Origin: Bryum argenteum
Taxonomy: Eukaryota > Streptophyta > Bryopsida > Bryales > Bryaceae
DNA length: 64,000 nucleotides
Reading direction: 5' to 3'
Assembly: GCA_037043015.1 (NCBI GenBank)
Contig: CM073330.1
Location: 3,311,263 to 3,375,262 of the forward strand
The position numbers were made by a program, and so were the translations under genes. This document shows, in pieces, positions 32,101 through 56,257 of this stretch; positions within the stretch are counted from its first letter, which is position 1; each line of letters begins with the position of its first letter. The notes under the pieces were generated by a model that saw nothing but the letters and a program-made list of their open reading frames with translations, was not told the DNA's origin and ran no database searches.

Positions 32101-33761
32101 GGGCTTGGCGCAGGATGATGAGGGATCCCTCACTGATACTTGCCCGGGCTGCAGCATTTTCGCGGACTAAATCCCTCACCATGTCGGGGTACCACTCCAC
32201 TTGGCCGGTTCGGAGTGCCACTGATATACCGCACATGGCCTTGTGCATCTGGAGGTGCTCCTGCGTGCATACATACAGGGCATGCGCAATTGGCTGCAGA
32301 GGGTGCTCCTCTGTTATCCGGAATGGGGGTACAGGGAGGCTGGGATCGAACTCCGGCCTCCGCGGGGTGAAGTCGTCCCACCCTGGCAACCGGGCTGCGT
32401 TGGAGGGTGTCGCCTCTGCGTGTACCCGGTTAGCGTGGGCAGGCGGATGCGGTGCGGTGGCCTCCCCGTCCTCTGACTCAGAGGACTCCTCTAGCACCTT
32501 CTTCCCCTTCCTCCGGATTTCTCTCTCCCGGGAGATGAGGTCCGCTGAACTGCTGGGATTGCTCGGATAACCGGTTCGAGGGGTTCGGCCCGGGCAGCAG
32601 GAGAGGCGGCCGGGGTTGGTGAAGTGTCCGCCCTCAGCTTTGTGAGCTTCCTCCGGATCCGTGGGCGAGGACTCTCGGCGGGGAGGTCCGCCTTCCTCTT
32701 CTTCGCATATTGCGGGTCTCTCCACTCTATTCCTCCCGTGGCTGTAGGCTGTCCGGGGTCCTCTGCCGGGCTATCTGCCAGGAGAAGTACCTCAGTAGGG
32801 ATGTTCCCCACTGGCACTTCTCGAGTCGGGGTCTGCACTTCCGGAGTAGGGCCTCCTTGCTGTAGAGCTTCCACAGCCTCGGTCTCTCCTGGCGGGGCCG
32901 AGGTTTCCACCCCCTGTTCTCCGGGCAAGGAGGAAGGCTCGTTCTCCACGAACCTCAGGACTCGTCCTGACTTCCTCCGGTGCAGGACGGGAGCCTCCTC
33001 TCCCTCACTATCATTTCCCTGCACCGGCCGGAGGGGTGGTGGCGAGACGACTACGGGGGCCGGAGGGGTCGCCATGGTGACCGAAGAGTCCTCCTCCGGT
33101 CCGGGCAAAGGTGGACCCGGATGGCTCGGTCCGGTGGCAGCTACACTCCGGGTCGCCATCCGGTGAGTGGTGGCTGGCCGGGGTGGAGTGCCTCCCTCCG
33201 GGAGGGGTAGCGGAGCGGCTTCCCTTTGTCTGGGGGTGGCCAATCCTCCAGTGCTGGATCCTGGAGCTCCACCCTCTCCTGCTTGAGATGCTGATTCTCT
33301 CCGTCGAGGCCTCTGCTTCCCTGGACCCGGTGGTCCTGGTGTAGCTGGTGGCGGAGGCGGTGGAAGTGCTCCGGCTCCGGGGTCAGCCACCCTGGGGAGG
33401 AACTTGGCTGCAGTGGGGACTCCGACTCCGGGAATCTCCTCCCCTGGAAACATGTCCCTCCTCTTCTCCATGAGCATTCGGAGGTGCGTGATTTCCCCCG
33501 GATGAAGGCATTCGTATTGTGCGTACAAATGGTACATGTACGGTGCCAGGGGGCACCCCTTTGCGCCAGGGTTGTCTTGCTAGACACAGACGGACGTCAG
33601 ACAGACACGACATGTCAGACAGACATTGAGCCTCAGAATGTCTAATAGAATCTACAGAATCTTTTTTTTACCCTGGATTTACCCTGTCCACGTTGCATCC
33701 TACGTGGCTGCCACGTGGCATGTACAGCTCAGCAATACGGTTCGCGACCGCGCCACGTAGG

Positions 33762-33996
33762 ACTGGACCGGCGGTCGTGTCATCTAGACCGGCGGTCGCC
33801 ATGGCCGGACCGGTGGTCGACTTGGCTGGACCGGCGGTCGCCTTAGCGACCGACGATCGCCATGAGCGACCGACGATCGCCCATGAGCGACCGATGATCG
33901 CCCATGGCGACCGGCGGTCTCGCTGGACCGGCGGTCGCCTATTCTGGCCCCTGGACCGGCGGTCGCCTATTCTGGCCCCTGGACCGGTGGTCGCCT
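33762..33996. repeat. GGACCGGCGGTCGCC cluster 1 (left subterminal)
   Basis: About seven copies of GACCGGCGGTCGCC interspersed with GCGACCGACGATCGCC variants, starting about 195 bp inside the left end of the giant hAT. No gene starts beside it; it lies 3' of the kinase-like gene. Confidence 0.9.
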
Positions 33997-34400
33997 AGGC
34001 TGGCCTTGCATTGGAGGCTTCCCCCGAGTAGAATAAGTCAATTTTTTTATCCCACATTATCCAAAATTCTTCCTTTCACGTTTTTAAACGTAGATGAAGC
34101 ATTAAGAATTCAAGATGAAACAAATTACAACAACCCACAAACCCCTGAAGGAAAGGCTAACATCTACCATGAGGTTTGAAACTCATGTAACACAAAATGT
34201 GGTGACATACATACGTGACTAGTGTAAAAAGGGAACATAATTATAAGAGTTGCAAAAATCTATTAGATTTGGAACAATATGTCAAGAAGTAGATTGTATA
34301 TATTGCAAGTATGAAATGTGAATTACATGGCTAAATGAGCACTCAATGACGTGAGATGGTCATCCAAAGGAGTCTATGAATTGCAAGAAGATATACGATA

Positions 34401-35986
34401 TTATAAACTAATAATCGTGTCCTCTCTAAATACAAGCTCCGGTGGAAGCATATGATATGGTTTCGCCATCAAGTCATTCACCACCTCCGAACAGGTCATT
34501 CTCTCATTTAATTCATGCCTGGTCATTGAGAACACCTTCGTTAGGAATGAATCTCGCACCGTCGAATTCGGTAATAATTCTTCGTCGAATTCGTTATACA
34601 CACCAATCACCGGATGAGCTTGCCAACCGCATACGAATGGATGCTACCGTGGTTGGATGTCGAAGTTCTGGACGTTCAAATTTGTATCTGAACCTTCAGT
34701 CCATAAGTATAGAACAACTCGGGCGCCACCCACCATCGACGTGTCATATCTTCTTTCTTTTTTTTTCCGTCTTGGTATCCGTAACGTGAAGGGTCGTTGT
34801 TCTACTATACGAGATGCCATCCCCCGATCCACACACTCCAATACAAATCTTGGTTCCTCCGAAAGTTGGGAAATGCAATAGTATGTTCGAGGGGATAGGT
34901 CGTTGTGAAGAACTCCGTCTTATGCACGAGATTCATGATGTACACTAAACCCCAAGCTAATTTCATCCTGTCTTTGACGGAAAAGGGTAATTCTGAAAGC
35001 CTCCTTTTGAGTGAGACTCGGAACTTCCTTCACTTTCGACCCGGTGAAGATGTTTGTCGCCGAACTTCTCATCCAACTTCAACATCTCGTGTAGTGATCC
35101 CCCATTCCACCAATATGAGTAAGCTTGAATGTCCTTGTATGCAACGCCCAAAACTTGATAATTCTGGATGATTCAAAGGACATACAAGAGCTTGCGCAGC
35201 AGTCTCTATCCTCCTCTTACAAGATTCATATTCTTGGAAAGCTTTGCTTTAAACTCGACATTTTCTCGAACGTGGTCTACTCCAAGTATCTTCGCCTTCC
35301 GCACTAGTCCATGGCCTCCCTCCATATTGCGGCCTGATAGAGCTTCTATCGTAGCGTCTTGAGGAATCCACACCACCCCCGACCATGTGTCTCGTTCAAA
35401 TGTGGCGAGCAAAGCGGTTTTTTCCCATGACTTCCCTCGGGTTTTATTCTTGCTAAGCTTTTGGATTGTGTGTATCCACCAATCCATCTTGCGTTTGAAC
35501 TGGTCCTCTTCTTGTGTTAGACGCCTCGTTCCAAATCGCTTCTTCCACAACTCCTTTACATTGAAGATGCATTGTTCAACTGTATTATCCATCCACAACC
35601 CGTATTGCGAATAATAATCCACATCTTGGTATTTCTCCGTTTCCTCCATGGCCTTCAAAATTACTGCCGCCAATTTCTTCTTCAGTCTCTCTTTGCCCAT
35701 GCTAACATTCCTGAGGTAGTTGTGCTCTAGGAATTGAGCCTCCGTTTCAGGACTCATACCAATCCATGCATGCTTTTTCCGCAAACTTAGTATAATCTGT
35801 TGTTGGGAATCCGGGTCTGTCTTCTTTTGGGTGTCTCCTCTTCCTCTTATGGCCTCCACTTCCACTAGGTTGTTCCCCTCCAACGTCTGGTGCAAATGTT
35901 TCGGGGGCATCCAGATCCCATGCTTGTTGTCCCTTCCCGTGCTTTTTGGATTTAGTCATCGTCGAAAATCTTGAAAAAACCGGCAA
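34401..35986 (-). pseudogene. Protein-kinase-like gene, decayed cargo
   Basis: On the minus strand from about 35,959 (MTKSKKHGKG; a further ATG is at 35,986) runs a charged N-terminal region of some 200 residues, then a kinase-like domain broken over three frames. Visible kinase landmarks are a glycine-loop-like GGHGLVRK and AKLSK lysine (about 35,235-35,275), IKFWALHTRT and YSYWWNGGSLHEM (about 35,090-35,160), LAWGLVYIMNLVHKTEF (about 34,920-34,960), an ILLHFP catalytic-loop tail and an IGVC.WGMASR DFG-like site (about 34,800-34,860). It ends with a helical C lobe, HELNERMTCSEVVNDLMAKP (about 34,450-34,510). The whole gene is on one strand and reads away from cluster 2. Several frame changes show it is no longer functional. 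The kinase family is uncertain; it is not one of the common plant receptor kinases. Confidence 0.6.
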
Positions 35987-36132
35987 AAAATCTCCCCACT
36001 ATCAATGTGCACCAAACCCCAAAAACTCCTCGAGACGACCTGGCAAAGTCGCATCATTAAGACGAGCAAGGACACAGGGCGGAAGAGAATTGATGGCGGT
36101 TTGGGAAAAGTAATAACAAACCCGCGTTGGGG

Positions 36133-36140
36133 TTTATATA
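36133..36140 (-). promoter_or_regulatory. TATA box of the kinase-like gene
   Basis: TATATAAA on the minus strand, about 175 bp upstream of the ATG at 35,959 and directly beside GGACCGGCGGTCGCC cluster 2. Confidence 0.5.
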
Positions 36141-36147
36141 TCCTTGA

Positions 36148-36513
36148 GACCGGCGGTCGCCCCTACGATCGCCAGCACCGGCGGTCGCCCCAGTCCCACA
36201 TTGTCGCGACAAAAAGCACCGGCCGGTCGCCCTACGTCCCATGATCGCGGCAATTTGGACCGGGCGGTTGCCTGCGTCCCATTGCCGCGAAACAATTGGA
36301 CCGGCGATCGCCCTCGTCCCATTGTCGCGCGAACAATTGGACCGGCGGTCGCCCTACGCCCATTGCCGCGAATAAACAGTACATCGGGCGATCGCCGCCT
36401 CCTCATTGTCGCGATTAGCCGCACCGCGTGATCGCTCTCACCGGACCGGGCGGTCGCCACGCAACGCGATACCTCTATCTGGACCGCGGTCGCCGCTGAT
36501 TTCTGGTCGCCCC
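36148..36513. repeat. GGACCGGCGGTCGCC cluster 2 (between divergent genes)
   Basis: About ten copies of GACCGGCGGTCGCCC and close variants, each followed by CCCATTGTCGCG or CCCATTGCCGCG words. It lies between the kinase-like gene (-) and the first WCHI gene (+), with a TATA box on each side, so it has the shape of a two-way promoter. Confidence 0.9.
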
Positions 36514-36516
36514 GCG

Positions 36517-36524
36517 TATATATT
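36517..36524 (+). promoter_or_regulatory. TATA box of WCHI gene 1
   Basis: TATATATT at the right edge of cluster 2, about 130 bp before the ATG at 36,653. Confidence 0.45.
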
Positions 36525-36652
36525 CCCGATCATACCTAAACTTGTTATTTGGGTTCTATGGCCTAGCGCGTTGTCTTACATCCATTGAATTGGGCCGCAT
36601 GCTTTCGTGCGGGGTAGGTAATAACTATTTGCCATTTTTGGCTATTTCATCC

Positions 36653-38718
36653 ATGGCTACTCTCGGCCAACTTCGGAAGGAAGATAACGACAAGAAGAGG
36701 AAGAGGAAGGGCGCTCCACAACGGAAAAGATTACACGTGCTTCTAAATCCAAATAAGCTTGCATTCGAGGTTGGGAAGATGAACCCGGATATGTGGACGA
36801 TGGCCACTTGCGAATCGTTCATTGAATGGTGTCACATTGACAAGAAATTCCCTCTCTCTCGTCACTATTTTCATCAAGCGCACGAACAAGGCAAATCTTA
36901 AGTTTTGCGAATGCCCAAACTTCAAGCAACGATGCATTGAGGTTTACCAAGTCCTGTATGGCATGCCATGTGTGGAGCGCAACGAGGTTCCATTGTTTCT
37001 TGCTCGTGGAGTATACGCCGAGGTTGCTCTTGGTAAACGAGTGGATTGGACAACTATCAAAGAGGGAAGCATGTAACACGACCTTCAACGAGTGACATTC
37101 CGACATGCATTCTAAGATTCCCCCGACGCTCCTAATGGTGGCATGGCGGTGATGAGGTCTATTACCAAGGCTATGGAAGAGGCTGCCCATCATAGTGCTA
37201 CATCGGAAGAGGACGATGACTCGGATGGTTCGCGGCCTCGTAAGGCGGTGCGTCAAGTTCGACAACCTCTTCCTCCCGCTAGCGTTGTGATTGATGCGGA
37301 TCATCGTCGTAATTTACCTGGCCGTTTCAAAATAGGTGGCTCTCGCCCTCCAATAGCAAGTAATCATCCACCCGTAGTAGAGCCCCATGGTACTTGCATC
37401 TTACCATTGGAAGAACTTGACTCATCTTCTAATCTCAAAGCTCTTCTGAAGAGTAAAGACGACGTCATAGCAAGATTGGAAGCGGATTTCGAAAAAACAC
37501 GAGCAATGTATGAGGAGAAGGTGAAAGAAGGGGAGCAGCTTTCCGTGGAATATGCACGCATGCGCGAGAAGATGCAAGAACTATCTCACGCACGTAACAT
37601 TTGTGGAGATGTAGAGAAATCTGACATGGCGGATGTTGATAGAGTTGTCTTCAACCTTACAGAGGACTTGGCATTTGGAGAAATGTCACCGCAACGCCCT
37701 ACATTGTGCCGTCCTGTGAAAGCTCAGCCATGTGTTGTTAATATGTCGGGCCTCGAACGAGAAGAAGATGTACGATGTGATTCTCAAGATTCTTTATCTT
37801 TACCGCTGTTCCCCCCTATCCGTAATCCCCCTTTCATGTCGTCTGATGGATACAACTCCTTATTAAAGGAAAAGCTACAACTTCAAGCCCGTTTGGAGCA
37901 GTTGTCTGCCACTTACTACCATTGGAAGGTGGCATGTATACTTTCGGTGGATAGAGGGAGACAAGTTGCAGCGGAGCTAGAGAAGATCGATAAGAATTTT
38001 ACTAGTGGAGCTGGTCGGCGAACGTTTGGTATGACCTCGTGGCCGAGTGTGGATACATTGTTTGATAATCTTCCTATGATGGACATCAAGATGCAAGATG
38101 ACACTTCTACAGAGGTTGTAGATTGGAGCAAGGCCGGGTGGAATTTCAAACACCACATGTCGGCACATGTTAATGTAGAATCAAGACATTATTGTGGCCC
38201 AACCCTCCGCATTTGTATTGGATCACTCTACGTGTCCCATATGCCTAAATCCATTTGGACTGAGGGTGGATGGGCTTTAGGCTCTTGTGTCCATATGTAT
38301 CATCCGCGTGTCTTTTAGTTCATTGTTTGACTCAAAGTCGTTGTGCTATATGCAAAGCGCCTTTTCACGAGCGGTTCTACGAGATGTTCAATCTAAGAAC
38401 TTATATGCCACCTTCTTGGGAACACAATGCGAGACTACGACGAGGTTCGATTCTCAGGGTAAAGACCTTATTTGGAGTTGGCGTAGAGGTGAACATGATC
38501 TCGAGAAGAGTACTCCTAGCTCCCAATTGAATTGGGAGACCGACCCAAACGAGATTCTAAGAGTTGCTCCAATACTTGCGGACACGGTCCAGGAGCATGA
38601 GGGTAATCGGATGTTCTTCTTCCAATGCCTTGGAGGCTATTTTGATGTGAGCTCTAATACATTCAAGTGGGGCCCCATCCAATGGGACATCGATGGAATC
38701 AATATGGGAAGAGAGTAA
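36653..38718 (+). pseudogene. WCHI-family gene copy 1, with RING-like C terminus
   Basis: I do not recognise this family. The start CCATGGCTACTC (36,653) gives MATLGQLRKEDNDKKRKRKG, a basic leader. The conserved domain follows: ESFIEWCHIDKKFPL, then after a frame change near 36,895 KQRCIEVYQVLYGM and NEVPLFLARGVYAEVALGK (to about 37,060). After a short break a second open stretch (37,143-38,318) is acidic, then a long coiled coil (for example KDDVIARLEADFEKTRAMYE at about 37,454). The tail holds a cysteine/histidine pattern, WALGSCVHMYHP then, in the next frame, CAICKAPFHERFYEMF, which looks like a RING-type zinc site (38,270-38,400). Cluster 2 lies just upstream. At least three breaks make it a pseudogene. 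Confidence 0.6.
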
Positions 38719-39181
38719 CCGACGGTGAAGGTCGTGCCTCCATGGAAGATTTGGAAGAGTGTCAATATCTTTGAGTCTACTTGGGGGCCACGATACAGTC
38801 TCAAGCTCTAGACTATTTCTTGGATGTACATAGTCCCCTCACAAGAAGGACTTTGCGGGACTTGAAAGACTCTAGAGTTTTAGATCGATCTTAAATGCGG
38901 ATGGTCCATTCAATCGAACTCGTGCAAAGCGCAAACTTCTTGTTGGAGAATGCTCCAACCCTCAGCCTAGTGAATGATAATTACGATATTGTGAATCCAT
39001 ACACTCGAGCATAGCGTATGGTTTTAGCTATATAGGACTATATTCCATTATAGTATTATCGAGTGGTAGCTTTTTGCGCAACAATGTATCTCATTTCCTA
39101 TTGTACTACTTTTTGCATCGATTAAATCAATGGTATGTATTTGGTTCGCTCCTTTGCTTGTGGTCTATCGATTGTACTTTG

Positions 39182-40836
39182 TCAACTTTTATTGTATCTT
39201 ACATCTTCATAGTCCATATAACCCGCCCAACCCCTTGTACCAATGCACAAACACGTACTTACGCATGATGAAAGGTAAAAACAAACTTCCATATATAAAG
39301 AGTATGCGAAAAAGTACATAGAAGAAATTACGTACACTTTCCCTACACCTAAATAACGTAAATCAAATATCGTTTGGTGAATGTTGGGGTTGTAAGTCCA
39401 TCGCCTCTCGTTAAGAATCTTCAACTTTTTCCTTGCCCTTTGAAAAAGTGATCGTTGCGGTTCCAAATCAACGTCGATTGCGTTTATGTTGATGTCATCT
39501 TTTGCGTTACTTTTACGATGAGCCCACTCTGCCCATGCGTCCTCAAATCGAGCATTCTCCTCAGCTACACGTAGTTGCTTTGCGAGTTTTACATTCCGGT
39601 CTTCTTCACTCCATTTCACCAAACCTCTTTAATTTGTCAACTTCCTCCGAGTCTTGCCATATTTACCCGCTAATGCCAAATCCGAATGCGTAGCATCTCT
39701 TTATCTACCTCTAGAGCAATAGATTCTTCAATATCCGTCAACTTATCCCTCCTCTCATTAGGACCCCTTCCAGGTAATTATGTTTAGTCATCCCGCTCTC
39801 GTAGTCTTCTACGGAAAGGTCGTTTTTGAATTTTTCTTCTCGAAAAACTTCTTCTTAGCCTCTTTTAAGTAGCACAAGCATGGTCTCCATGTCGGCTATG
39901 TGGTCTAGAGCTTTTTCGAAACCTCCCGAAATTCTTCTTGTACATCGTATGGTGTAGAAAGGGCTCTTTCTTTGAGGGCTTCCAATTCCTTTCTATTCTC
40001 AAAGTTACTAAATCCAATTCGATGCATGTGACTCTACCTAAATTGTGCAAAAGGATCAAAGTATCCATGGCTTTGGATAATCTTCCACCCACTTTTCGGA
40101 ATGGATTTACCTCAAAGGATATTGCTTCAATCCAATGCAGTGGAGGACTAGTTGGTTCATCGAGCTCGTATTCGTGTGTGTGTTCATCCTCCAAGGATTC
40201 AGAAGAAGACCCTGCTGTGTAAAATTCCGCGTCGGCCTTAGGACTCATAGGTACCGTTCCAATTCCATCTCCTTCAATAGTCTTTGATGTCTCTCCAACC
40301 TCTATTGGTTCGGTCTTCTCTTGTATAGGCAAACGTGGATGCGTCCACCAATGCACCTCCTTCCCGAGAATCATTTCCGCATATGCCATTTGTGCCAAAA
40401 AGTAGGGAACCTCATATTTAAAAATATGGTTGTTACCGTATATCATATGCCAAGCATAGATGCATCTCGCTTTGAATTCGTAATGATGGCACTCTCGGAG
40501 GTTAGCTTCATTCTTGTGCCGATGAATATTGTGCCAATGTAGAGGAAAGAGCTTGTTGATGTGGCACCACTCCACATATTTCTCAGATATGGCAAAAGAC
40601 CACGGCCCCCTCTCATCCTCCCATCCTCTAAACGCTACTAACTTTGGATTCTTCAAGATAGCTCTGCGCTTCTTCGCAATCCGACCTCGCTCATGGCGCA
40701 CCATGGATGTGCCCGCTACAACGGGTAGTGCCTCCATAAGAAAAATTCGTAGAGAAACGCAAAGTCCCTCTACGAGCAAGCAAGCAGCAACTCTGAAGTC
40801 GATACTAGTCAATGCGCGAAAAGGAGGAACTCGCAA
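39182..40836 (-). pseudogene. WCHI-family gene copy 2
   Basis: A minus-strand copy facing copy 1 tail to tail. The likely start is 40,737 (MEALPVVAGTSMVRHERGR), which gives the basic leader seen in the other copies; an earlier ATG in frame is at 40,836. Conserved domain: YVEWCHINKLFPLHWHNI, HHYEFKARCIYAWHMIYG, YEVPYFLAQMAYAEMILGKE. An acidic spacer (SSSESLEDEHTHEYELDE) and coiled-coil region follow, with frame changes after 39,865. The C-terminal piece, 39,182-39,622, starts MVKWSEEDRNVKLAKQLRVA and is helical. Cluster 3 lies just upstream of the start. It is less decayed than copy 1 in its N-terminal 300 codons. Confidence 0.6.
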
Positions 40837-40890: not shown

Positions 40891-41090
40891 GCACCGCCGG
40901 TCGCTTGCTGGTCCAGCTATCGCCCTATCTGGACCGCCGATCGCCCCAACGACCGACGTTCGCCCATGAACTGGACCGGCGGTCGCCCTAGCGACCGACG
41001 TTCGCCCAAAGCTGGACCGGCGGTCGCCCTAGCGACCGACGATCGCCCTAGCGACCGACGTTCGCCCATGAGCTGAATCGGCGGTCGCCC
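40891..41090. repeat. GGACCGGCGGTCGCC cluster 3
   Basis: About five full copies plus GCGACCGACGTTCGCCC variants in alternation. Lies about 150 bp upstream of the start of WCHI copy 2. Confidence 0.9.
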
Positions 41091-42390: not shown

Positions 42391-42588
42391 CGAAGTCGCC
42401 CCTGCAGAGTGCCGGTCGCCCCGAAGCGCTCCGCTGAGGCTGGATCGAAACTCTTCTGAAGCTGCACCGGCGGTCGCCCCGGAGGTCTGCTGCAGCTGGA
42501 CCGGCGGTCGCCCTGGAGCGAGTCTTGCAAGAAACACTGGACCGGCGGTCGCCCTAACGATGTCGCCGGGACACCGCCGGTCGCCCTG
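42391..42588. repeat. GGACCGGCGGTCGCC cluster 4
   Basis: About five copies of ACCGGCGGTCGCCC, including CTGGACCGGCGGTCGCCCT twice, some 200 bp upstream of WCHI copy 3. Confidence 0.9.
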
Positions 42589-42786: not shown

Positions 42787-44232
42787 ATGACTACAATTGC
42801 GGAACGTAAAATAGTACTTGGGGAGCGACGCAAGAAGAGAGGAAAAACACAGAAGAGGAATCACCGTATTCTCCAAGATGCCACTCAACGCGCTTTTCCG
42901 GGGTGGGAGACCGAAGAGGGTGTGTGGAGTCAGACAACAGTGAAGAATTACATTGCCTGGTGCCACATCAGCAAGTTGTTTCCACACTTTCGACATGAGA
43001 CGCACTTGAAATTAAATGCTGCAAATGTGCACTATTGTAAGCATGACGAATTCGTGCAACGATGTATTGAAGTGTGGAGGTTCCTTTATAAAGGCAAGAA
43101 TGTCACTAAGAACGAGGTTTCGTATCATATTGCTCAAATGGTGTATGCAGAGGTAATATTGGAGAAAGTGGTGGATTGGAGCTCAATGAAAAAATCGCCT
43201 CAATACTTCCTTCCAACCAAGTAAGATATTCCAAGAGCCCCATTGAGAGAAAACCCACGAGAAGGACTTACGGCAGCAAGGCATCGGAAAGATGGGGATG
43301 CTGATGATGTGTATGTTTGGGTAAATCCTAATTCTGATGAAGAAGAGGTTAACGAGAGGGAGCATCATACTCCTCTTGTAGAAGGTTCTATTGGTGGCGT
43401 CGAACACTTTCATGTGGGTGAAACAAGCGTGCAAGATTTGGATGTGATTGATGCACCTGTGAAGCACATCGAGGACCTACGAACAGAAGGAGAAGCGGAT
43501 GGCATTGAATACATGGAGGTTGAAGCAATGTTTGGTGCTTGTACTTTGGGAACACCCGAAGTTATAGTTCGGCCCGTTATGAGCGCCTCTCCTCAAACAA
43601 ATGTTAGCGTAGAGGATGGGACTCTAGAATATCCAATGGAAACGATTGAACAGCCAGAAAGAGAAGGAAATGAAGAAGTAGAGCTGGAGAAGGAAGTTCA
43701 AGTAGTCTTCAAAGCGAAACGCCCGAATGAAAACGATGATTCGTGGATGAAGTTGTTGAACAAGGCTTTTGAGAATTATTCATATTTGTTTCATGCTTTG
43801 TCATACGAATGGGAAAAGTGTGTTGAACTCCAACATGACATAGAGGTAATCAAGGATGCAAAAAAGAAGATCCAAGAGGAGGCGACGAATGTTCTCCCAG
43901 CTCTGGTTGCATCAGATCAGGTCGATTATGAGGAAGAGCTCATAAGAAAGACGAAACATTTCGAGGATGTGCATAGGAGATACAAGCGCGTCGACGAATG
44001 GTTTGTTGTCAATGATTGGGGTCGCGAGAAGGATTTTATGGTTGAAGGAGCCAAGGACCAAGGTCATTTTGAGAAGGAGCTAAAGGAACTCATTTCGGCA
44101 TGCGATGCCTTGAGAGCTGAGATCGAAAGGGTGAACCTAGCATCAATAAGATTGAAGGGGAACAAGGAAAAGTTAGTCCTCAATGGAATAGATGGAACCG
44201 TGGATATTGCGAGAGAGGGTCAAAGTTCATAG
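42787..44232 (+). CDS. WCHI-family protein copy 3, best preserved
   Basis: Start ATG 42,787 (MTTIAERKIVLGERRKKRGK). The conserved domain spans residues about 50-140: TTVKNYIAWCHISKLFPHFR, HYCKHDEFVQRCIEVWRFLY, NEVSYHIAQMVYAEVILEKV. One in-frame TAA (43,222-43,224) follows, then the same frame stays open for another 330 codons to 44,232. That part is acidic (NSDEEEVNEREHH), then a long coiled coil (residues about 300-470; ELKELISACDALRAEIERV). The TAA sits in CCAAGTAAGAT, which could also be a donor site of a short intron. Against copy 4, the link region after the domain also seems shifted by one frame. Function unknown: the basic leader and conserved Trp/Cys/His positions suggest DNA or protein binding, and the coil suggests dimers. 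Confidence 0.65.
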
Positions 44233-44239
44233 CGCAATG

Positions 44240-45060
44240 AAACAACCGAGGAGTTGGTCAAAAAGCTACTTGTGCTCATGAGAAGAGGAGAGGTTCTTAA
44301 ATGCAAGGATCGAAGATCTATGTATTGCAAATAAGACAAAGGAGAAATGTCGGAGCTGGTACCATCTAAAAAAAATCTAAAGTACAATGGAAGAAGATTA
44401 GAGTAAGCGGAATCAAGTTTTAGAAAGACGTTGGTGTGTTGGTTATATCCATTTACTTTATTTTATTTGTGAACTGAAAGTTGGGAGATAAGTGCTAGGC
44501 TGGATGTTATACAATGTATCTTTTTGATTATATGATATGTTTTTACTAGTAAGATACCCGTTGAACGATGTTATGTTTATTATTTATATATGCGCACGGT
44601 GTTATTTTAATCATCTTGTTTATTCTTTTTATTTGTTTATTTTTTATTTGAAATGCATGATTTGGAAATATCTAAAAAAAGGTTCTTAGAATGGTATGTA
44701 GGTTCGTAATTATTTAAGTTGGTAGGTTTGTATGTTGGTAGGTTGGTGGATACTTTGGATAGTGGTCTTTTAGAAAATTATGTCGTGTATACCATTCCAT
44801 ATGTATATATAATGATATTGAATTTTGGAAAGCTTTGATTAGTATTAATCCACGATGAAGTAATGATAAATAATTTGTAAAAATTTGGAATCGTAACTAA
44901 GTTGTAAAAGTTACGTATAAATATATGGTGGGATTTAGTTGCAAGTATTTAGAGTCAATGAATATATTTACAAACCCCCCAAAACCTCGAAAGGCAATGA
45001 TTCGTACATGATTTCAAATATGCAGAAAAAGATTTGTAGCAAATGGGGGGGAAGCAGATA
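44240..45060. other. 3' region of WCHI copy 3
   Basis: No gene seen. AT-rich, with scattered T-rich tracts. Confidence 0.5.
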
Positions 45061-45067
45061 TTCGCGC

Positions 45068-45335
45068 CCATCACGTAGACCGCCGGTCGCCCTGTCACCG
45101 TCGTTTGCTGGATCGGCGGTCGCCCTAGCGACCGAAAATCGCCCTAGCGACCGACGATCGCCCATTGCTTGGACCGGCGGTCGCCCCAGCAGGAGGGTGC
45201 GCGGAGGCTCGCGGACACTATTCTCCTTGGTGCACCCATCACGTAGACCGCCGGTCGCCCTGTCACAGTCGTTCGCTGGATCGGCGGTCGCCCTAGCGAC
45301 CGACGTTCGTCCATCCGCTGTATTGGCGGGCGCGG
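45068..45335. repeat. GGACCGGCGGTCGCC cluster 5, itself duplicated
   Basis: It contains two copies of a 70-bp block, at 45,068 and 45,236, that starts CCATCACGTAGACCGCCGGT and runs on through CGCTGGATCGGCGGTCGCCC. It is the one cluster without a clear gene start beside it. The next 1.4 kb is non-coding, so the gene it served may have been lost. Confidence 0.88.
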
Positions 45336-45339
45336 GATT

Positions 45340-46614
45340 TGGAGGTTTTGAATGAAGTTAACACCAAGTATCCTATAGACCTACACCATGCCAAGGTTGA
45401 ATCAAATTAACACCAAGTATTTCCTTCCATGTAAATCCAAGTTCCATGTGGCTTCTTTCATGATTTAATATATTTAATACGGTTAGAGAAAATAATAAAA
45501 CCACCTCCTCCCCCCTTTAGTATAACTTCCTCTATTACTTAGCATCCTACAAAGTCAAAGTAAATCATAACATGTAGATACGTTTCTCTTACGGGAAATT
45601 TTGTTCTTCCATAATTTTTATAAGGTCTTTTTTAGTCAACACAAGTTTTAAATCGTTATCTCTTTCCACAAATCTATTTTCCGTATATCATTCAATATTC
45701 TACTCATTCAAATGACTTACAAGTAAATGATGACCTATAGGTGACATATCCCCACGATTTTCTAAATAACACCATCATTTCCATAGGGTCATCATTAGGT
45801 AGTGTAAGGGTTTAAATTATCCTCTTACCCCCTTTATCTATTTTTTCTTATTTTTTGAAGTTTTGGTGTTTCTAAGTGCTTGCAACCAAAATCCAACCTA
45901 TAGATCCTTTACTCCAACGATTCTTTTTTATAGCTCCATCATGTTCATAAGGTAGTTATTACATAGTCCAATTCTTTTTAAAATATTTTTTCTCTCCATT
46001 TAACTATTTTTTATCTTTTATTTAAAGCTCTACTTACTTCGAAAATTCTATATTAATTTGGGAAAAATAGTACATGTTGTCCTATAATATTTTTGATGGT
46101 TCCATCATTTTTATATGATCCGTATTACCTACACTAAATAGGTAGATTAGTGTTAGATACACTAATATACATAAATAGGCTATAAGTTTTTACTATTAGT
46201 CAATATTTGTACCCTCTACAAAGGTGAAGATGGGGATCCTTACATAGTATTGGAATCGATACTCTTGGTAAAATTTTTATCCCAAAAGTAAAAACTTGTA
46301 GCATTTTCAAATCTTATAAAAATCTAACACTAATGTACTTATTTAGTGTAGTCCAAATGTTCAAATTACATTCCCCACTTTGTTTTCGTATGCATGTGCG
46401 CACAACGCCTACTTTCACATGACTATTTAATTTTTGGAAATTTGGGAAAAATACTTTCATTCCTGTTGTGCCCCTAAGATTTATATTATATTTTTTACAC
46501 AATATGAATCACCTAGGAAAGTTATCAACACCCCTTCTACTCCCTTTTTACTTATATATCATTTTCATAGGGTCATTATTAGGAAGTCCAAGTATTAAAA
46601 TCACATTATTGCCC

Positions 46615-46666
<52 letters not shown>

Positions 46667-46800: not shown

Positions 46801-47110
46801 TGGACCGGCGGTCGCCCAGTGACCTCCGGTCGCCCACCAGCTGGATCGGCGGTCGCGCGATCCAGAGGTCGCGCCCCCACGCATACGTCGCCCCCTCCCA
46901 CTTGGAGGTCGCGCCCTCTGACCATTGGTCGCAGACCAGGTGGACCGGCGGTCGCCAATCCACTGGATCGGCGGTCGCCCTGGCGACCGACGTTCGCCCA
47001 TCGGGTGGATCGGCGGTCGCCCTGGCGACCGACGCTCGCCTTTCAGCTGGATCGGCGGTCGCCCTAGAACCAAGGTTACATATACGCGCGCGGACACCGC
47101 CAGTCGCCAT
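46801..47110. repeat. GGACCGGCGGTCGCC cluster 6
   Basis: About six copies of TGGAYCGGCGGTCGCC alternating with GGCGACCGACGYTCGCC, plus GGAGGTCGCGCCC variants. It lies about 240 bp upstream of WCHI copy 4. Confidence 0.9.
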
Positions 47111-47350: not shown

Positions 47351-48056
47351 ATGACGCCTAGCCAGGAGCGGAAGATAGCGAGAGACAAGGACCGCAAGAG
47401 GAAAGGAAAGATGCAAAGGAGATTTCACAAGATTCTCATAGATCCCACGCTACGAGGCTTTTCCGGGGTGGCGCAAGTAGAGGAACCGTGGACCCTTAAG
47501 ACTTGCAAGTGGTACATTGCTTGGTGCCACATCGGCCATTTGTTTCCACACTATCGTCCACGAGTTTCATCGCCGCTTTGACCGCGCAAATTTGCACTAT
47601 TGCCATCACGATGAATTTGTGCAACGATGCATTGAAGTGTGGAAGTTCCTCTACGCCGGTGTGCATGTGGTGAGCAACGAGGTTTCGTACAACATAGCAC
47701 AAATGGTGTACGAGGAGGTAATTTTGCGAGAGGGACGTGGATTGGAGGACGTTTAAAAATCCCCTCAAACAATTAAGCCAACAGAACCCCACATTCCGCG
47801 AGCTCCTTACCCAGGCCAACCCACGAGAAGGGCTTACAACACCCGGGGGTTACAAAGGAGGAATCCTGATGATGAGGACATAGTCCTGGTCGATTCGGAA
47901 GAAGAAGGGACCGAAAGCCGAGAAGTGGATGAAGGGGAGCCGAACTAAACGATGGAGGAAGGTCAGGCACATTTTGATGAAGGGGGGCCAAGCCAAGTTT
48001 GTACAGAAGGGGGGCCAAGCCAAATTTACAATGAAGGGGGCCCAAGCGAAGAATGA
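47351..48056 (+). pseudogene. WCHI-family gene copy 4, short
   Basis: ATG 47,351 gives MTPSQERKIARDKDRKRKGK. Domain: TCKWYIAWCHIGHLFPHY, frame change near 47,570, then HYCHHDEFVQRCIEVWKFLY and NEVSYNIAQMVYEEVILREG (to about 47,730). After another shift near 47,755 the frame reads PTRRAYNTRGLQRRNPDDED and an acidic tail. A final stretch, 47,953-48,056, has three copies of a GGPSQ-type repeat (DEGGPSQ, TEGGPSQ, NEGGPSE) before TGA. The coiled coil of the other copies is missing, so the 3' half is deleted or replaced. Confidence 0.6.
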
Positions 48057-48600: not shown

Positions 48601-48608
48601 TCGCTAAG

Positions 48609-48760
48609 GCGACCGGCGGTCCAACCAGGTAGGGCTAGGGCGACCGCGAGGTCCAATGAAGCGATGAAGTCAACGCCCGAGCGACCGCCGGTTCACATGG
48701 CGCGACAGCGTTGTTGTTAGGGCGACCGCCGATCTGGCTGTGGCGACCATCGATCTGGCT
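48609..48760. repeat. GGACCGGCGGTCGCC cluster 7 (reverse orientation)
   Basis: Copies here read GGCGACCGGCGGTCCAACC and GGCGACCGCCGATCTGGC, so most of the block is in the opposite orientation to clusters 1-6. It ends seven bases before a TATA box and lies upstream of the transposase remnant. Confidence 0.85.
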
Positions 48761-48766
48761 GTGGAG

Positions 48767-48773
48767 TATATAA
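48767..48773 (+). promoter_or_regulatory. TATA box of the hAT transposase
   Basis: TATATAA directly after cluster 7, about 230 bp before the transposase reading frame at 48,998. Confidence 0.55.
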
Positions 48774-48997
48774 GGAGTCGTTCACGGGCTCGAATTCACT
48801 TTCCTTTGCGCTTGGCCCGTTGTCTTGGGTCTCCCCATGAGAAGCCCCCTGCTCGGTCTATAGGTGCAAAGAGTAACTTGAGCCCTTGTAGTGCGTGTTG
48901 TCGTCACGGTTTCATTGCGGCGGCGGAGGTGCGGTTCGAAACATGGAGCATTCTTCCCAATCCAAATAAGTACGGATAATAGAAGAGACACTCGCAA

Positions 48998-51411
48998 ATG
49001 GGGCGAGTGGCTACGAGTATCCACGGAACGGAACGACAAGCCAAATACTCGCGTGTGCTTATTCGTGGGAAAAGCACGGTCTTTGTAAGGCAACGAGCAT
49101 TAGCTCATTTCGGATATCCTCACAATTCCCATTACCCTGGTGTACGAGGTTGCCCCGTGGAGTTCTCGAGCTATTCCGTGATCATGGAGGATAGTTCCAA
49201 AGAACAACATTTCTTATGCGGATGTTGTTCCGGACTCACGAGTGGATGCCGGCATACCATATGCGGCAAGGGAAACTACGGAGAACATAGATACCCCTCG
49301 CATCAACTCGTACAAGTGCCATCCCCTAACCTAAGGTCTAATCGGTGCCATCCTCTAACAAGGGGAGTCATGGCGGCAAAGAATGGACAAAGGATCTCTA
49401 CACTCTCTAGTGGACGGCGACATGGGCAAAGGAGTATGGAGGATAGTTTTGATCTTGCCATTAGGCAAAATTTGGATGCAAAGTGGGCTTCATTTTTCTA
49501 TGAGGCAAACATTGCATTCAATGTCGTACGACATCCAGCATTCATAAGTGCCGTTCAAGAGACAGCAAAGGCCGGTATTGGTGGATATCAACCACCCTCG
49601 TATCATGCTATTAGGACTACGATGCTCGAGGCGAAGAAGGCGGCTGTGCAAAAATCGGTAGAGGATCGAACAAAACTTTCTATCGAGAAGTACGGAGGAA
49701 CAATATGCTCAGATGGGTGGTCCGATGTCACAAGCAGACCACTCATTAACATGATGCTTGTTTGCCAAGTGGGAGAGGTGTTTTTGGGATCAGTGGATAC
49801 TACAGGGAAGAAAAAGGACATTGCTTATGTGGCAAATGAAATGGCGAAGTACATAGAGGAGGTTGGACCACAAAACATCGTGCAGATATGCACCGACAAT
49901 GCAAGCTCCATGTTAGGTGCTGTGAAGAAGTTGCAGATAGACTATCCTCACTTGTATGGACAAGGTTGTGCGGCACATATTCTAGACCTCCTTCTCGAAG
50001 ATTGGGGGAAAGAGGCGTGGGTTAAGCAATTGGTGGAGCAAGCCAAGAGAGTGTGCACATTTATTAAGGGGTCCCACGTCCCCCTTGCTCTATTCATGAA
50101 GTACTCGCCAAGTCGCACTCAAGGTACCACCCTGCACTCGATTTGCAACAAACTACTTGATGATAGAGCGGTTGTTAAAGCTACAACAACCTCTGAACAA
50201 CATGGTGATCGATCCGGAGTGGCATGTGTTTGTCCAAACATTGTTCAACGAGCAAAACAATCACGATTCTGAGACAAAGGCAAGGAATGTGCGGATTAGC
50301 ATTAGGAGCGATGAGTTAGGGAGAATTGTACGAAGTTTGTCAAAGTAGTTGAACCAAGTACTCCTAGCTCTTCGGGAGTTCGACGGGGAAGTACCAAACC
50401 ATGCCCGGGCGTATGTGATCATGTCGGACCTTAAATAAGGAACACGTGTTCTCTTTGCGTGAACCTCCATTCGAACTATCCCCGACATTGCTACAAAATA
50501 CGAGGATGCATTTCAAAAACGATGGGAGATGATGCTCACAGACCTCCACTATCACGCAGACTTTGTTGAACCCTTATTTGACAAATATTGGAGCAATTCA
50601 AAACAATGGAGAAGCAAGAAGAGCTTTAAACCGGGTCATAAGGAAGCTTAGCGCCCCAATGGGAGTGGTCTATGAGGAAGTGGTGCGGGAACTCATACAA
50701 TATGAGGAGAGGACGGGTCCATTTAACACCAATTCAGAGGCCCCTGATCCAGCTCACTGTGACTTGTTACCACATCAATGGTGGCATCAAGTCGGGGGGA
50801 ATGCCTTGCCAAAAATTGCGAAGAGGATTTTGGCATTGACATGTTCAGCTTCATCATGTGAGAGGAATTGGAGCATGTACTCTTTCGTGCACAACAAAGT
50901 GAGGAATCGGTTGCCAACCCTTCCAAAGCAGAGGACCTTGTGTACATCTATGCGAACGCCAAACTCGAGCGCCAGAAACGTACCAGATCGCCGAGAACGT
51001 GGTACGAAAATTACTTAGAAGAAGAGGACTCTGACGAAGAAGACTATGTACCCGACAATGAATGGGATGATGGTGTATTCATGGATAACTAGGAGGCGGA
51101 TGACGACAATTATGTCAATGACGGTAGCGAACACGACGACCTAGAGAATTGGAATGACAACGAAGGAAACATGACTATTCATGTCAAGGACCCGTTTGAG
51201 TTCGATGACGACCAGGATGTTCCACAACTGCCTCGCCAGTTTGCGGTATTTGCCAAATGACGGACGAAGGAGAAGGAGTGGCAAATTTACAACTCCAAGA
51301 GAGTACCGCCTAGCGAAACAAGACTTGGTAAACCGGATGGATGAAGAGAACATTGGTCCACTTAAAAAAGCGACCTACACTCTAACAACGACGATAAACT
51401 TGAGAGTGTGA
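48998..51411 (+). pseudogene. hAT-family transposase, decayed
   Basis: The gene that would have moved this element by cut and paste. A degenerate BED-type zinc finger lies at about 49,040-49,170 (RVLIRGKSTVF then RALAHFGYPHNSHYPGVRGC; the first Cys pair is lost or out of frame). The DUF659-like catalytic region follows in one frame: ICSDGWSDVTSRPLINMM (about 49,705) and VQICTDNASSMLGAV (about 49,880) carry the expected acidic residues, and GCAAHILDLLLEDW (about 49,970) the helical insertion motif. After frame changes near 50,160-50,270 and 50,560 comes the C-terminal dimerisation part, LTCSASSCERNWSMYSFVHN (about 50,840), and an acidic tail (EEEDSDEEDYVPD, about 51,020). At least four breaks are visible. 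The domain order is that of DUF659-type hAT proteins in plants. Confidence 0.85.
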
Positions 51412-51419
51412 AGGGCACG

Positions 51420-52610
51420 GTTACCACGACAGGAGTTCAAATGGACCAAATTAAAGTGGAACCTAACGATGTATCCAATTCAGGTTGTGTGAGCCATCTA
51501 AATGACTCATTAACATAGATTTGCTTAACTTTGCAAATTTTGTGTAAAAGTTTTTATAAAAAACTTCTAAAAACTCTAATTTATTTTACTTATGTTCTTT
51601 GATTATTTAAGCGACTCTAAATTCTAATCGTAGTATCCATTTTAATTTAATTTCCCATACTAATTTTTTTTTATCGTAGTATTCGGTTAAATAACCATTT
51701 CATTTTATGGCCTCTACTAATTTTCTAACCATATAATTAGTCTAATAGCCCATTTCCGGTTATTCGCCCATACTAATTTCTGGCTACACTAATTAACGGC
51801 CGCCCACACTAATTTCAGCGGAGGCCACACTAATTAACCTCCGCCCACACTAATTTCAGCGGAGGCCACACTAATTAACCTCCGCCCATACTAATTAGTC
51901 AGTGCCACACTAATTAAGTGCCGCCCACACTATATGGTGCGGCGACTACACTAAGTTACATAAAAATGATCTGATAAGTATGAACTCCAATAATTCAAAT
52001 TCACTACGCCTCCTCCCTCACTTAGTGAGTTGAAATTGTCTTCAATTTGATGCTATAAGTAGTTTTCTAGTTTTGCAATTGAAACACACACACAATTTAT
52101 CATTGCTAGTTTTCTTGATGATCAGTAGAAGTTCGTTTTTTCCGTTTCTCTTTTTCAGCGTGGTTTGTGAATCTTCATCTCTGGTGGCTGAAGCGTTGTA
52201 GAATTACCGGTTGTTGCAACGATATTAGTTTCTTCCCGGAGGTGCAATTGCCGGCGACAGTACAACAGACTCGTGGATCGACGTTGTTCAATGACGGTGC
52301 CGGTGCTTGGCGTGTATGTGGTCGGTCGGATTCGAAGCCGGAAGAGAAGTCGTTGTTGAGGTGCACGGGGTTTGTGAGACGATCCTGCCGAAGAGTGATG
52401 GTGCGACGACGGACAAGGTGTAGGAAGTCGTGACATCTCGAGCTCGCCGGTGTTGTTCTTGTTGGACCAGATCCGGAAGCGCTCGTAGAAGGCTTGTGCT
52501 TGAAGGCGAAATTTAATTTTTACTTGTTCATTGTGTAGATGTAGGAAAATTAGTAAGGTGAGACACAAAAATGATCAAAATCGGAGTTAAAATGAGGAAG
52601 TTATGAAGGT
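51420..52610. repeat. Non-coding stretch with CACACTAATT tandem repeat
   Basis: About 51,765-51,955 holds four or five copies of a roughly 41-bp unit made of CCACACTAATTAACCTCCGCC and CACACTAATTTCAGCGGAGG, which contains a short GGAGG/CCTCC inverted repeat. Between 52,155 and 52,568 open frames exist on both strands (minus: AFYERFRIWSNKNNTGELEM), but I cannot choose between them. Confidence 0.6.
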
Positions 52611-52680
52611 TTTTGGTTAGGAAGTTTTTTTTTCTAAACTCTGCTCCCAGTCTGTTTTTCTCAAAACAGTTATCCAATTG

Positions 52681-52865
52681 TTTTCATCCAGCAGCGCTGT
52701 TTTCATCCACAAGCGTTGTTTTCATCCAGAAGCGTTGTTTTCATCCAGCAGCGCTGTTTTCATCCAGCAGCGTTGTTTTCATCCAGCAGCGCTGTTTTCA
52801 TCCAGCAGCACTGTTTTCATCCAGCAGCGCTGTTTTCATCCAGCAGCGCTGTTTTCATCCTCCAA
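52681..52865. repeat. 19-bp tandem repeat
   Basis: About ten copies of TTTTCATCCAGCAGCGCTG with few changes. A 19-bp unit is not a multiple of three, so it opens all three forward frames with the same FIQQRCFHPAALFSSSS-type words. These are not real proteins. Confidence 0.95.
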
Positions 52866-52951
52866 CATTATTTTCGTCGATCTTTTCAACTCGTTGTGTT
52901 GTTATTAATTCCTCGAAAGACGGTGGGAGGATTTTTTAGCTCACAGGTTGC

Positions 52952-53569
52952 ATGGAAGTGGGGTCACCTAGAGTTTCAACCATTCGATCAAGGAATTCAA
53001 CTCTTAACGGAGATGACTCCGATGTACCTCTACAACAATTGTTCCCAAGGGTTACCCAACCTAAAGGGGCCCATACAACTCGTATGGTATTGCCCAAGAT
53101 GGAGGTCAAGATAGAACCAACAAGTCCAACATGCAACCGGGCATTGGCAGTGGCACGAGACGTCGGGCCATCTACACAACCTCGCAATCGTATTACACGA
53201 GGCCAGAAGCGTTTGAGGAAGGCACACGATCGACGATGTCGGAAAGGAGCACGTGTACATGAAGAAGTCCATGCTGGGATTGCTTCATCCAATAATCCGA
53301 ATACACGCGTAATGCGCCATCTACCACTGAACGCAAACGGGATCACTAATGCTTCACGGCCCTTGAAGCGCCTCGTTACAGTGAACAAGAAAACAACCAC
53401 GGACACGGAATTGCGCAATTTGGCGAGTGAGGTTGAGTGTGAAGTACGCAATGAGACAGAGGATGAAGACGAGGATGGCGACCAAAGCACCGATGACTCT
53501 CTAGGTGAAACCGATCCAAACGCAGATGAAGTATCAAGCGACGATACGTATACATTGAAGGATACCTAA
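52952..53569 (+). CDS. Unknown acidic-tailed ORF, last cargo gene of the giant hAT
   Basis: 205 codons from MEVGSPRVSTIRSRNSTLNG to a TAA at 53,567-53,569. A basic middle (RNRITRGQKRLRKAHDRRCR) is followed by a strongly acidic tail (NETEDEDEDGDQSTDDSLGE). The bias of the tail and its codon use look like real coding sequence, but I know no family. A possible acceptor, TAGCTCACAG, lies just upstream of the ATG, so it may be the last exon of a longer gene. It is the only cargo frame besides part of WCHI copy 3 without an obvious break. Confidence 0.45.
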   Translation: MEVGSPRVSTIRSRNSTLNGDDSDVPLQQLFPRVTQPKGAHTTRMVLPKMEVKIEPTSPTCNRALAVARDVGPSTQPRNRITRGQKRLRKAHDRRCRKGARVHEEVHAGIASSNNPNTRVMRHLPLNANGITNASRPLKRLVTVNKKTTTDTELRNLASEVECEVRNETEDEDEDGDQSTDDSLGETDPNADEVSSDDTYTLKDT

Positions 53570-53928
53570 AGACGGGTTATTAGAATTTTGTTATTTTGGA
53601 TTGGAAGCACGAAGTTCATTGTTAGTACTCGGTACAATACTACAATGTACTGCAAGTAGGGCAACTATTAGCTTACAATACTTTGGTATCCTAGTATGTT
53701 TCGGGAGTATAATACATATAGTTTGGTATATGTAATAGTTACATCATATATATGAATACTATGATTATAGACATGCGCAAATTTGTACTATGAAATGCAC
53801 CATTGACCTTGTTTCCAATTAAAAATGTATTCATAAAAATGCTTTGAAGCTCATTTTGTACCAATATGGATATATTTTTCTTGTTTCATATACAACCATA
53901 GTGCTGGTCACATGGGCGCTACCCCTGC

Positions 53929-54316
53929 GGCGACCGCCCGATAGCCATAAGCGACCGACGATCGCCCGGGCGTCGTCGATCGCTAAGTACTAGACCGGCG
54001 GTCGCCTAATAGCGGTTGCCGTGGCGATCGCCGATCGGTATAAGCGGCCGACGACGCCTCCTTCGCGATCGATCGTCGATCGCTCAATCTTGGACCGGCC
54101 GCGTCGCCTACTAGCGATTGCTAGGGCGACCGCCGGTCTCCATCTTCGACCGCCGTCGCCCTACTAGCGATTGCTAGGGCGACCGCGGTCTCCATATCTG
54201 GACCGCCGGCCGCCTTCTCATGGCGGCCGAGCGTCGGCGGTCGCGAGAGGCGACCGACGTTCGCCCGGTGCGACGACCGCCCGATCGCCTAGCGAGGTCG
54301 CCACCGGTGGTCGCCC
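53929..54316. repeat. GGACCGGCGGTCGCC cluster 8 (right subterminal)
   Basis: The largest and most mixed cluster. Units occur in both orientations (TAGACCGGCGGTCGCCTA and GGGCGACCGCCGGTCTCC), mixed with GCGATCGCCGATCG variants. It lies about 210 bp inside the right end of the giant hAT, mirroring cluster 1 at the left end. Confidence 0.9.
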
Positions 54317-56257
54317 ATCGTGACGTGTTTTTGATTTTCCACGTCATTATCAACCCTACGCCACGTAGGAAAATAGCTTTTTACCTCAAGGTAAATCTCA
54401 GCAAGTTTTTTACTATGTAATTTTTGGTACCGTCGACATTTTCGTCGACTCGACGTCTAACAGACATGTCCAATACGACAATTCAGACAGACATTCCCAA
54501 AATTGTGTCTAATAAGACAACCCTGCTTTGCGCTGGTGGTCTTCTTCACCGCGCGGGTAACCACCTCCTCGAGGATATGTCCCCACCCAATCTGTCTCCT
54601 GCCCAGGTAAGATTCCATGATCGCTTTCAGGAGCCGGTTCGACATTGTCTGTGGCTTCTCCGGGTTCAGGATCGGAACTAGAAATCGGAGAAGGCGTCGC
54701 TCCCTTGCATTCACGCAGTCCTCCACCCGGAATCCATCATGCTCGTGTGCCGGGTTGTGGAACTTCCCGATCAGGGAGGGGTCGTTCCTCACCTGAATGT
54801 ATCCGGTGGGGGAGTCCGGGAAGCCATAGGTCGCTCTCCAGCAAGCCTCCTGCCAGAAGTGCGGCTTGGCTCGGACAGGGTTATCTGCAAAGGTCGGTGG
54901 ATCCTGTCCGGACGCGGCCTCCTCAATGATCTCTGCGTCCTCCACGTTCCAGGGCACCCAATACAACCCTGCGCACCCGATCCGTCTGAGATCCTGCACC
55001 AGCTGTGCTCGGGCATCCTCCGCCATCGGAATGCCAGCTTGGATGATCTTACTCCGGGTTCGCGAAGCTCGCTCTCCGGCCATGGTTCCGTACTCTCCTT
55101 CCCCGGGCTATGGCGTACAGGACGGCCGCGTGGAGCAGGAGCGCGCGTACAAAATTTGGGAGCAACAACGTCGACAAGGGCACGAAAAACGAGGAGGAGG
55201 GAAAAAGGGGGGTAACGGCCAAAATTGGCCGCTAAAGACAACGGAGTGGGGGAGGTGGATGGCGGCGCATCATTAATCACGGGCTTTTGTCAGCCCGGGA
55301 CTGTCGGCGCCGCCGCCGGTATTTCCTCCGCCCGGCCCGTCGTTGCTACCCGGCCCGGCGTTGCTGCCCGGGTCGGCAGTCATACCCGGACCGGTACCCG
55401 CCAGGGCAATCATACCCTGCCGCCGTATCCGCCCACCGATACCCTACTGTTGGTACCCGGCCAACGTCTACCCGGTCGGGCTTATCCGGTCGCGGCTAGC
55501 CGGTCTGAGGCAGTCCTTACACTACTAGAATGCTCCACTGCGAACTACGGCCCGGAAACTACGTTTGAGACTCTGGCCTCGTTTTTGCGGATTTTTGCTA
55601 CGTTTATGACGGGCTAGATTTTCGGACCGGCGCTGCTACGTTATCTCGGGGTTCGTACAAATGGAACTACGCTACCTTGGGAACGCGCAGTTCCCCTATG
55701 TAATCGCTGTTATCCTGGTAGGGCGTAAATTGCGGCCTCGGGGGTTTAACGGAGTATGCTATTATGGGATTTCGGCAGTACGACTGGGTAAAGCGGATAA
55801 TGGATTGTACATAAGGTAAGTATGACATGGCATTGCTGTGAGTAGATTTGCCTGGGTTCTTGCATTCCCCGAAATACTAGTAAAAATAGCTGACTTACTG
55901 AAAACGCAAATTCTCGTATCGAATTCCTGAACCACGAGGTGAAAATATAACTAATCGGTGAAAATCCTAGACTATAAAACTCTATCTACAATCCAAAGTA
56001 ATATTTGCTTGGCTTACCCTTGTGTACTTCAGAACCGAGTTTTGGATCTAATTATAAATAATTAGAATTTGACAGTAATAAAAAAGTTTCCAATATCACC
56101 TAGTGAATGAAGTTCAATGGGAAGGGAGTTCCAAAATAAGTGGTATATAAATTATTTTTAATTTTAAATCTGGTGATAATCTCTGTCATGGATATTTATT
56201 CAATATACATATAAGTGTGGGTATCAACAAATATCTTCAGGATTGTATGAAACTCAC

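Follow-up and report, generated by a model that had tools for sequence, protein, structure and literature searches.

Transposons of the hAT superfamily are usually a few kilobases long, and the window analyzed here, 64,000 nucleotides of the bryophyte Bryum argenteum (GenBank assembly GCA_037043015.1, contig CM073330.1, positions 3,311,263 to 3,375,262; G000:C10:3311263-3375262 in our coordinates), raises the question of whether a stretch of 21 kb with hAT-like ends and several genes inside is one transposon, and what the additional genes do there. An earlier note, made from the letters of the window, had proposed an approximately 21-kb hAT element with repeated cargo genes, and had named as checks a genome search with both ends, a search for other copies with their own 8-bp duplications, for empty sites and for internal terminal inverted repeats (TIRs) dividing the region, and a comparison of cargo order between copies. 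We find that window positions 33567 to 54525 are a single hAT insertion within another dispersed repeat, and we are highly confident that it is a decayed member of a hAT family of about 20 kb with a fixed gene order and motif arrays; colinear copies, hAT domains, the pairing of the ends and empty sites all support the proposal. The element, its TIRs and its target-site duplication (TSD) are placed in the window as follows.

33567..54525, no strand: whole hAT element, 20,959 bp, based on ends, TSD, colinear copies and empty site
33559..33566, no strand: left copy of the TSD, CTTTGCGC
54526..54533, no strand: right copy of the TSD, CTTTGCGC
33567..33588, plus strand: 5' TIR, matching the 3' TIR at 20 of 22 positions
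54504..54525, minus strand: 3' TIR

The left junction reads CTTTGCGC followed directly by CAGGGTTGTCTTGCTAGACACA, the right junction closes the element with TGTGTCTAATAAGACAACCCTG and continues into CTTTGCGC, and CAGGGTTGTCTT is found exactly at both TIRs. Short TIRs of the CAGGG type are of hAT type. The target duplication is 8 bp long and perfect at this element, and both it and the inverted ends stand in the window letters exactly as the earlier note had stated them. The genome searched comprised 258.8 Mb in 25 contigs. Its contig C12 carries rbcL next to a 318-aa frame that is probably accD, which marks the host as a plant, and the plastid looks probably bryophyte-like. Here and below, first-look candidates are places proposed by a search and not confirmed copies. 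With the two flanks joined across one TSD copy, the best 40 of 162 first-look candidates were scored, and the joined sequence ran uninterrupted in 38 of these 40 places (best, 97%); the remaining two were the window's own right flank and a match beginning a few nucleotides from the duplicated site. Because the joined flanks are uninterrupted in 38 of the 40 scored places, both flanks come from one dispersed repeat, in agreement with the claim that they belong to one and the same element, which the earlier note took to be of LTR (long terminal repeat) type.

The two ends also occur together elsewhere in the genome. End probes of 234 nt (5') and 226 nt (3') gave 279 and 309 first-look candidates, the best 40 of each being scored. 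For 17 of the 40 scored 5' places, a scored 3' place follows in the downstream direction on that strand at a distance of up to 45 kb; placing the 3' ends at random gives 0.13. Counted over all occurrences, beyond the best 40, the exact 30-nt termini are present 59 times (5') and 55 times (3'); an exact 3' terminus lies on the same strand within 100 kb of 29 of the 59 exact 5' termini, compared with 3 of 59 when strands are flipped. The commonest length between exact ends is 19 to 20 kb. Of the 29 paired lengths, 15 are in the range of 17.6 to 24.4 kb, including eight at 19.2 to 20.0 kb; a further eight measure 2.3 to 12.1 kb, and the other six measure 28 to 78 kb. TSDs were read in 17 end pairs, namely the window copy, ten elements read whole, and six read by their ends; 15 of the 17 are among the 29 exact pairs, and the mutated end of copy C2 was read by eye. 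Perfect 8-bp duplications flank 14 of these pairs, two (C10a and C4) have one mismatch, and one has none. The end pair at G000:C5:18137013-18165055, 28 kb long and without matching TSDs, could be a product of recombination between two elements. Internal probes for the kinase and transposase genes gave 138 and 136 first-look candidates, and the best 40 of each were scored; at 23 of the 40 places scored for the kinase, the transposase probe follows in order, in 14 cases at a distance of 14.6 to 15.7 kb. When the four scored probe lists were merged, at least two markers stood in the correct order in 41 of 89 groups.

Six genes, A to F, and one insert are recognized within the window element.

34411..35998, minus strand: gene A, encoding a protein kinase whose N-terminal region is all helical; broken here, with a 516-aa frame open in C10a and C1a
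36650..38974, plus strand: gene B, N-terminal "FRGW" domain, coiled coils, and a RING-H2 finger; broken here, with a 777-aa frame open in C10b and C5b
39414..40704, minus strand: gene C, FRGW family, about 433 aa, with a start codon chosen by us; broken here
42787..44331, plus strand: gene D, FRGW family; broken here, 515 aa open in C7 only
47351..48053, plus strand: gene E, FRGW family, 234 aa, approximate start; broken here, open in 6 of 11 elements
48950..53566, plus strand: gene F, hAT transposase (DUF659 and hAT dimerisation domains, acidic C-terminal tail), approximate start; in pieces here
51488..52943, no strand: insert of about 1.46 kb with TGTGAGC...GCTCACA ends and a 5-bp TSD, GGTTG; approximate boundaries

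Nine full-length elements (17.8 to 21.0 kb, window copy included) are colinear with pairwise identities of 95.4 to 97.6%, and in all of them the gene order is kinase A (minus), B (plus), C (minus), D (plus), E (plus), and transposase F (plus). Each of the eight full copies besides that of the window has its own 8-bp TSD, in one case with one mismatch. The insert of about 1.46 kb, probably a solo long terminal repeat (LTR), is found in the window copy only and is absent from the eight other full copies; within it, a 19-bp unit (TTGTTTTCATCCAGCAGCG, with variants) is repeated in an array near positions 52659 to 52905. The segment at about 44940 to 46640 of the window is absent from copy C1b, and about 1.4 kb of it is present twice, in opposite orientations, in C3. 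Gene content was examined in 11 elements, the nine full copies together with C10c and C3. C10c (11.3 kb) is a deletion derivative that has lost A and B along with most of F. C3 (12.1 kb; G000:C3:11191780-11203859) has the ends of the giant element and none of its cargo open reading frames (ORFs). Part of C3 is made up of sequence that also occurs in the 2.3-kb element C1d (G000:C1:11335896-11338186), in several copies and both orientations; C1d itself resembles the giant element near the ends only.

Gene F identifies the vehicle. It matches the Pfam families PF05699 (hAT dimerisation, 5e-6) and PF04937 (DUF659, 2e-36 to 2e-40), which agrees with the transposase remnant that had been noticed from the window letters. 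Residues D350, D411, and E732 (in CERNWS), which we take to be the catalytic DDE triad, are invariant in an alignment of 20 transposase sequences, several of which lack the N terminus. The longest open run of F covers residues 1 to 764 of 1042, in C1a. The earlier note had rightly seen an acidic ORF and had counted it as a separate cargo gene; the ORF is instead the C-terminal tail of the transposase, since the 1060-aa homologue P0026 carries it as such, and in the window copy the insert of about 1.46 kb separates it from the rest of F.

As for the cargo, the other gene assignments of that note hold: its kinase-like gene is gene A, and its four copies of an unknown family are genes B, C, D, and E, four paralogues that we call the FRGW family. 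Gene A matches Pfam Pkinase (PF00069), its predicted structure has the kinase fold, and two alignments built from its 47 homologues, with 25 and 37 sequences, keep the catalytic residues of kinases; the Foldseek list for this protein holds the generic protein-kinase fold and no closer relative. The RING finger of B matches Pfam below the curated cutoff, and Pfam RING domains are found in 6 of its 25 homologues. In the protein collection searched, A, B, and F have 47, 25, and 22 homologues, respectively, at 29 to 95% identity and mostly on contigs of a few kilobases. All six genes are broken in the window copy. Among the 11 elements, A is open in two, B in two, C in three (C9, C7, and C1b, and 99% open in a fourth, C10a), D in one, and E in six, and each cargo gene is open at full length, without introns, in at least one copy. 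A function for the cargo is suggested by the conservation of catalytic residues in distant homologues and by the fixed layout, and a separate transcription unit for each gene is plausible from gene orientation and from the motif clusters listed here.

33765..33994, no strand: 5' subterminal GGAYCGGCGGTCGC array, 11 copies at up to 2 mismatches
36147..36457, no strand: motif cluster separating the divergent genes A and B; the wider pattern counts 5 copies, the stricter one 4
40891..41088, no strand: motif cluster upstream of gene C
42464..42552, no strand: motif cluster upstream of gene D
45077..45291, no strand: motif cluster with no recognized gene directly downstream
46802..47062, no strand: motif cluster upstream of gene E
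48609..48735, no strand: motif cluster upstream of the transposase gene
53951..54244, no strand: 3' subterminal motif array, 6 copies

The repeated unit is a 14-nt GC-rich motif, GGAYCGGCGGTCGC. With up to 2 mismatches allowed, the window holds 46 copies of it, 45 inside the element, compared with an expectation of 0.16 from 100 shuffles. Relaxing the pattern slightly brings the count inside the element to 46, with a single copy elsewhere in the window. Coding sequence makes up 50% of the element and contains none of these 46 (p = 3e-14). They form eight clusters: one in each subterminal zone, one between A and B, one each ahead of C, D, E, and F, and one with no recognized gene after it. The same eight clusters are present in eight of the nine full copies (window included) and seven of them in C1b, with 45 to 71 motif copies per full element, and each of the 11 elements, as well as the 2.3-kb C1d, has motif arrays close to its two ends. 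Over the whole genome, a 19-nt version of the motif occurs 108 times and its reversed control not at all. The cluster at 45077 to 45291 lies beside the segment that is absent from C1b and may mark a lost or unrecognized gene.

Several observations weigh against reading these copies as one giant hAT family with working cargo. No exact 3' partner lies within 100 kb of 30 of the 59 exact 5' termini, and the C5a end pair (28 kb) is without a TSD. Among the 11 elements examined, none has all six genes open, and no autonomous copy was seen. The fold search for B gave a best Foldseek E value of 1.1, with weak matches to the RING part only. Variants among copies show no significant constraint (ratio of nonsynonymous to synonymous variants [pN/pS] of 0.64 for variants private to one copy and 0.51 for those that are shared; Fisher p = 0.15), and a codon-phase scan flagged two overlapping windows (p < 0.02), both outside genes. 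The differences among copies mostly record decay after insertion.

The lack of significant constraint, together with the breakage of every cargo gene in the window copy and of many in the others and the range of paired exact-end lengths from 2.3 to 78 kb, would also fit an alternative in which the element picked up host DNA by chance, in the manner of Pack-MULEs, and this cargo multiplied passively with the element without being of use to it. We regard this as unlikely, however. Cargo that varies between copies, as in Pack-type elements, was not observed among full copies, because all eight besides the window's hold the same genes, intact or broken, in the same order. The full-length, intronless reading frames of the cargo likewise argue against chance capture, as does the fact that the motif of the element ends also precedes each cargo gene; moreover, the homologues of A, B, and F extend down to 29% identity, and the aligned subsets keep the kinase and DDE residues.

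Some large DNA viruses also have a kinase and a RING protein, and the large size of the element, with its own kinase and RING protein, could suggest a Teratorn-like composite of transposon and virus with viral cargo. This we consider very improbable, since Pfam scans of 16 frames, which cover part of the element, found no capsid, polymerase, or packaging gene, and scans of viral contigs with the alignments of B and F, the kinase not being scanned, confirmed 0 of 14 and 0 of 25 pattern matches. The least probable explanation, a nest of several transposons whose outer ends mimic one element, could draw on the insert private to the window copy and on the segment lost from C1b and partly doubled in C3, but in its strong form it is rejected by the colinear copies, which share ends and order and have their own TSDs, by the empty site, and by the lack of any internal TIR pair splitting the element: a search with the first 12 nt, with up to 2 mismatches allowed, has three hits in the interior (37640, 40203, and 52768), and none of them extends as a TIR.

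Three further features lie in the window outside the giant hAT element. Inverted arms of 170 nt, 89% complementary, at 29005-29174 and 59303-59472 flank the insertion and are perhaps parts of dispersed repeats. A 153-bp palindromic element at 25942-26094 has perfect 8-bp duplications, ATTGGGAC, and ends close to the TIR of the giant element (one end is CAAGGTTGTCTTATCAGACA); it is a hAT-type miniature inverted-repeat transposable element, perhaps of a related family. A tRNA-Leu (caa) gene was predicted by ARAGORN at 22876-22960.

How such an element might move and use its genes can be outlined from these data. The Ac transposase binds element ends and subterminal arrays. By the same scheme, F as a DDE transposase would bind the TIRs and the subterminal arrays, excise the element, and insert it with 8-bp duplications, and copies with a broken transposase would be mobilized in trans; such cut-and-paste transposition is supported, at the level of sequence, by the TSDs, the empty site, and the dispersal of the family. 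The chances are about evenly balanced that the internal arrays let a DNA-binding protein encoded by the element, either the transposase or an FRGW protein, control the cargo promoters together. We likewise give an even chance to the idea that the cargo, rather than being a chance set of host genes, serves the element by acting on host silencing, on expression, or on transposase activity through phosphorylation and ubiquitination.

VANDAL elements are of the Mutator type. In Arabidopsis, VANDAL21 encodes the protein VANC, whose short target motif lies in variable arrays mainly in noncoding parts (PMC5735166). The family described here is alike in its dense short-motif arrays, variable in copy number and mainly noncoding, and VANC is the nearest working analogy for them. 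The motif is different, the likeness is one of layout and not of sequence, and a kinship of FRGW proteins with VANC, or a role in demethylation, would be speculative. On this basis we offer a tentative and rather doubtful proposal: the four FRGW proteins could be sequence-specific binders of the 14-nt arrays which, with the kinase and the RING ubiquitin ligase of the element, switch off host silencing or tune transposition. This would be a VANC-like counter-defense that originated independently in a hAT element and allowed growth to 20 kb in a haploid-dominant land plant.

By each defining feature tested (TSD, TIRs, dimerisation domain, DDE residues, and subterminal repeats), the element is, on its sequence, a hAT. 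It resembles other members of the superfamily (Ac/Ds, Tam3, and Tol2) in its CAGGG-type TIRs, 8-bp TSDs, dimerisation domain, DDE residues, and subterminal arrays, and it differs from them in its size of about 20 kb, its five extra genes, and its arrays before every gene rather than at the ends only. The literature matches listed, which were titles and abstract openings with most subscription papers and all bioRxiv preprints outside, included no land-plant hAT of giant size and fixed gene content, and the text of a 2019 review on giant eukaryotic transposons has no whole-word match to "hAT."

Among known systems, ToxhAT of fungi is a 14-kb hAT carrying passenger genes (PMC9594970). Unlike the present element, ToxhAT is fungal and linked to horizontal transfer of one gene, and the part of the paper that was available describes no family that numbers dozens of copies and keeps a fixed set of six genes (PMC9594970). 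Giant KDZ, EnSpm, and Sola-1 transposons of brown, green, and red algae, generally longer than 10 kb and reaching more than 30 kb, are similar in having accessory genes, nested inserts, an often broken transposase, and hosts with a long haploid phase, but their transposases belong to other superfamilies, whereas here the vehicle is a hAT and the host a plant; in a table of the same source, hAT elements make up 0.05% of the Ectocarpus genome (PMC12477816). Some fungal hAT7 and IS3EU elements have TET/JBP or alpha-kinase genes; like the element described here, they are DNA transposons that join an accessory gene, in some cases for a kinase, to the transposase (PMC12730594). The kinase carried by IS3EU is an alpha-kinase, and hAT7 carries a dioxygenase, whereas the element described here has a Pkinase (PF00069), four FRGW paralogues, and a TSD of 8 bp rather than 7 (PMC12730594).

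Giant cargo-bearing DNA transposons were already known; new here are the unusual size for a hAT, the stereotyped gene set, and the motif arrays before each gene. With a multicopy giant hAT of fixed gene content in a plant, the giant DNA transposons gain a superfamily and probably a lineage as well. According to a proposal in the algal study, hosts whose haploid phase is long tolerate giant elements (PMC12477816), and a bryophyte host would fit this proposal. The motif arrays also make it possible to test directly how a single element may control several of the genes that it carries.

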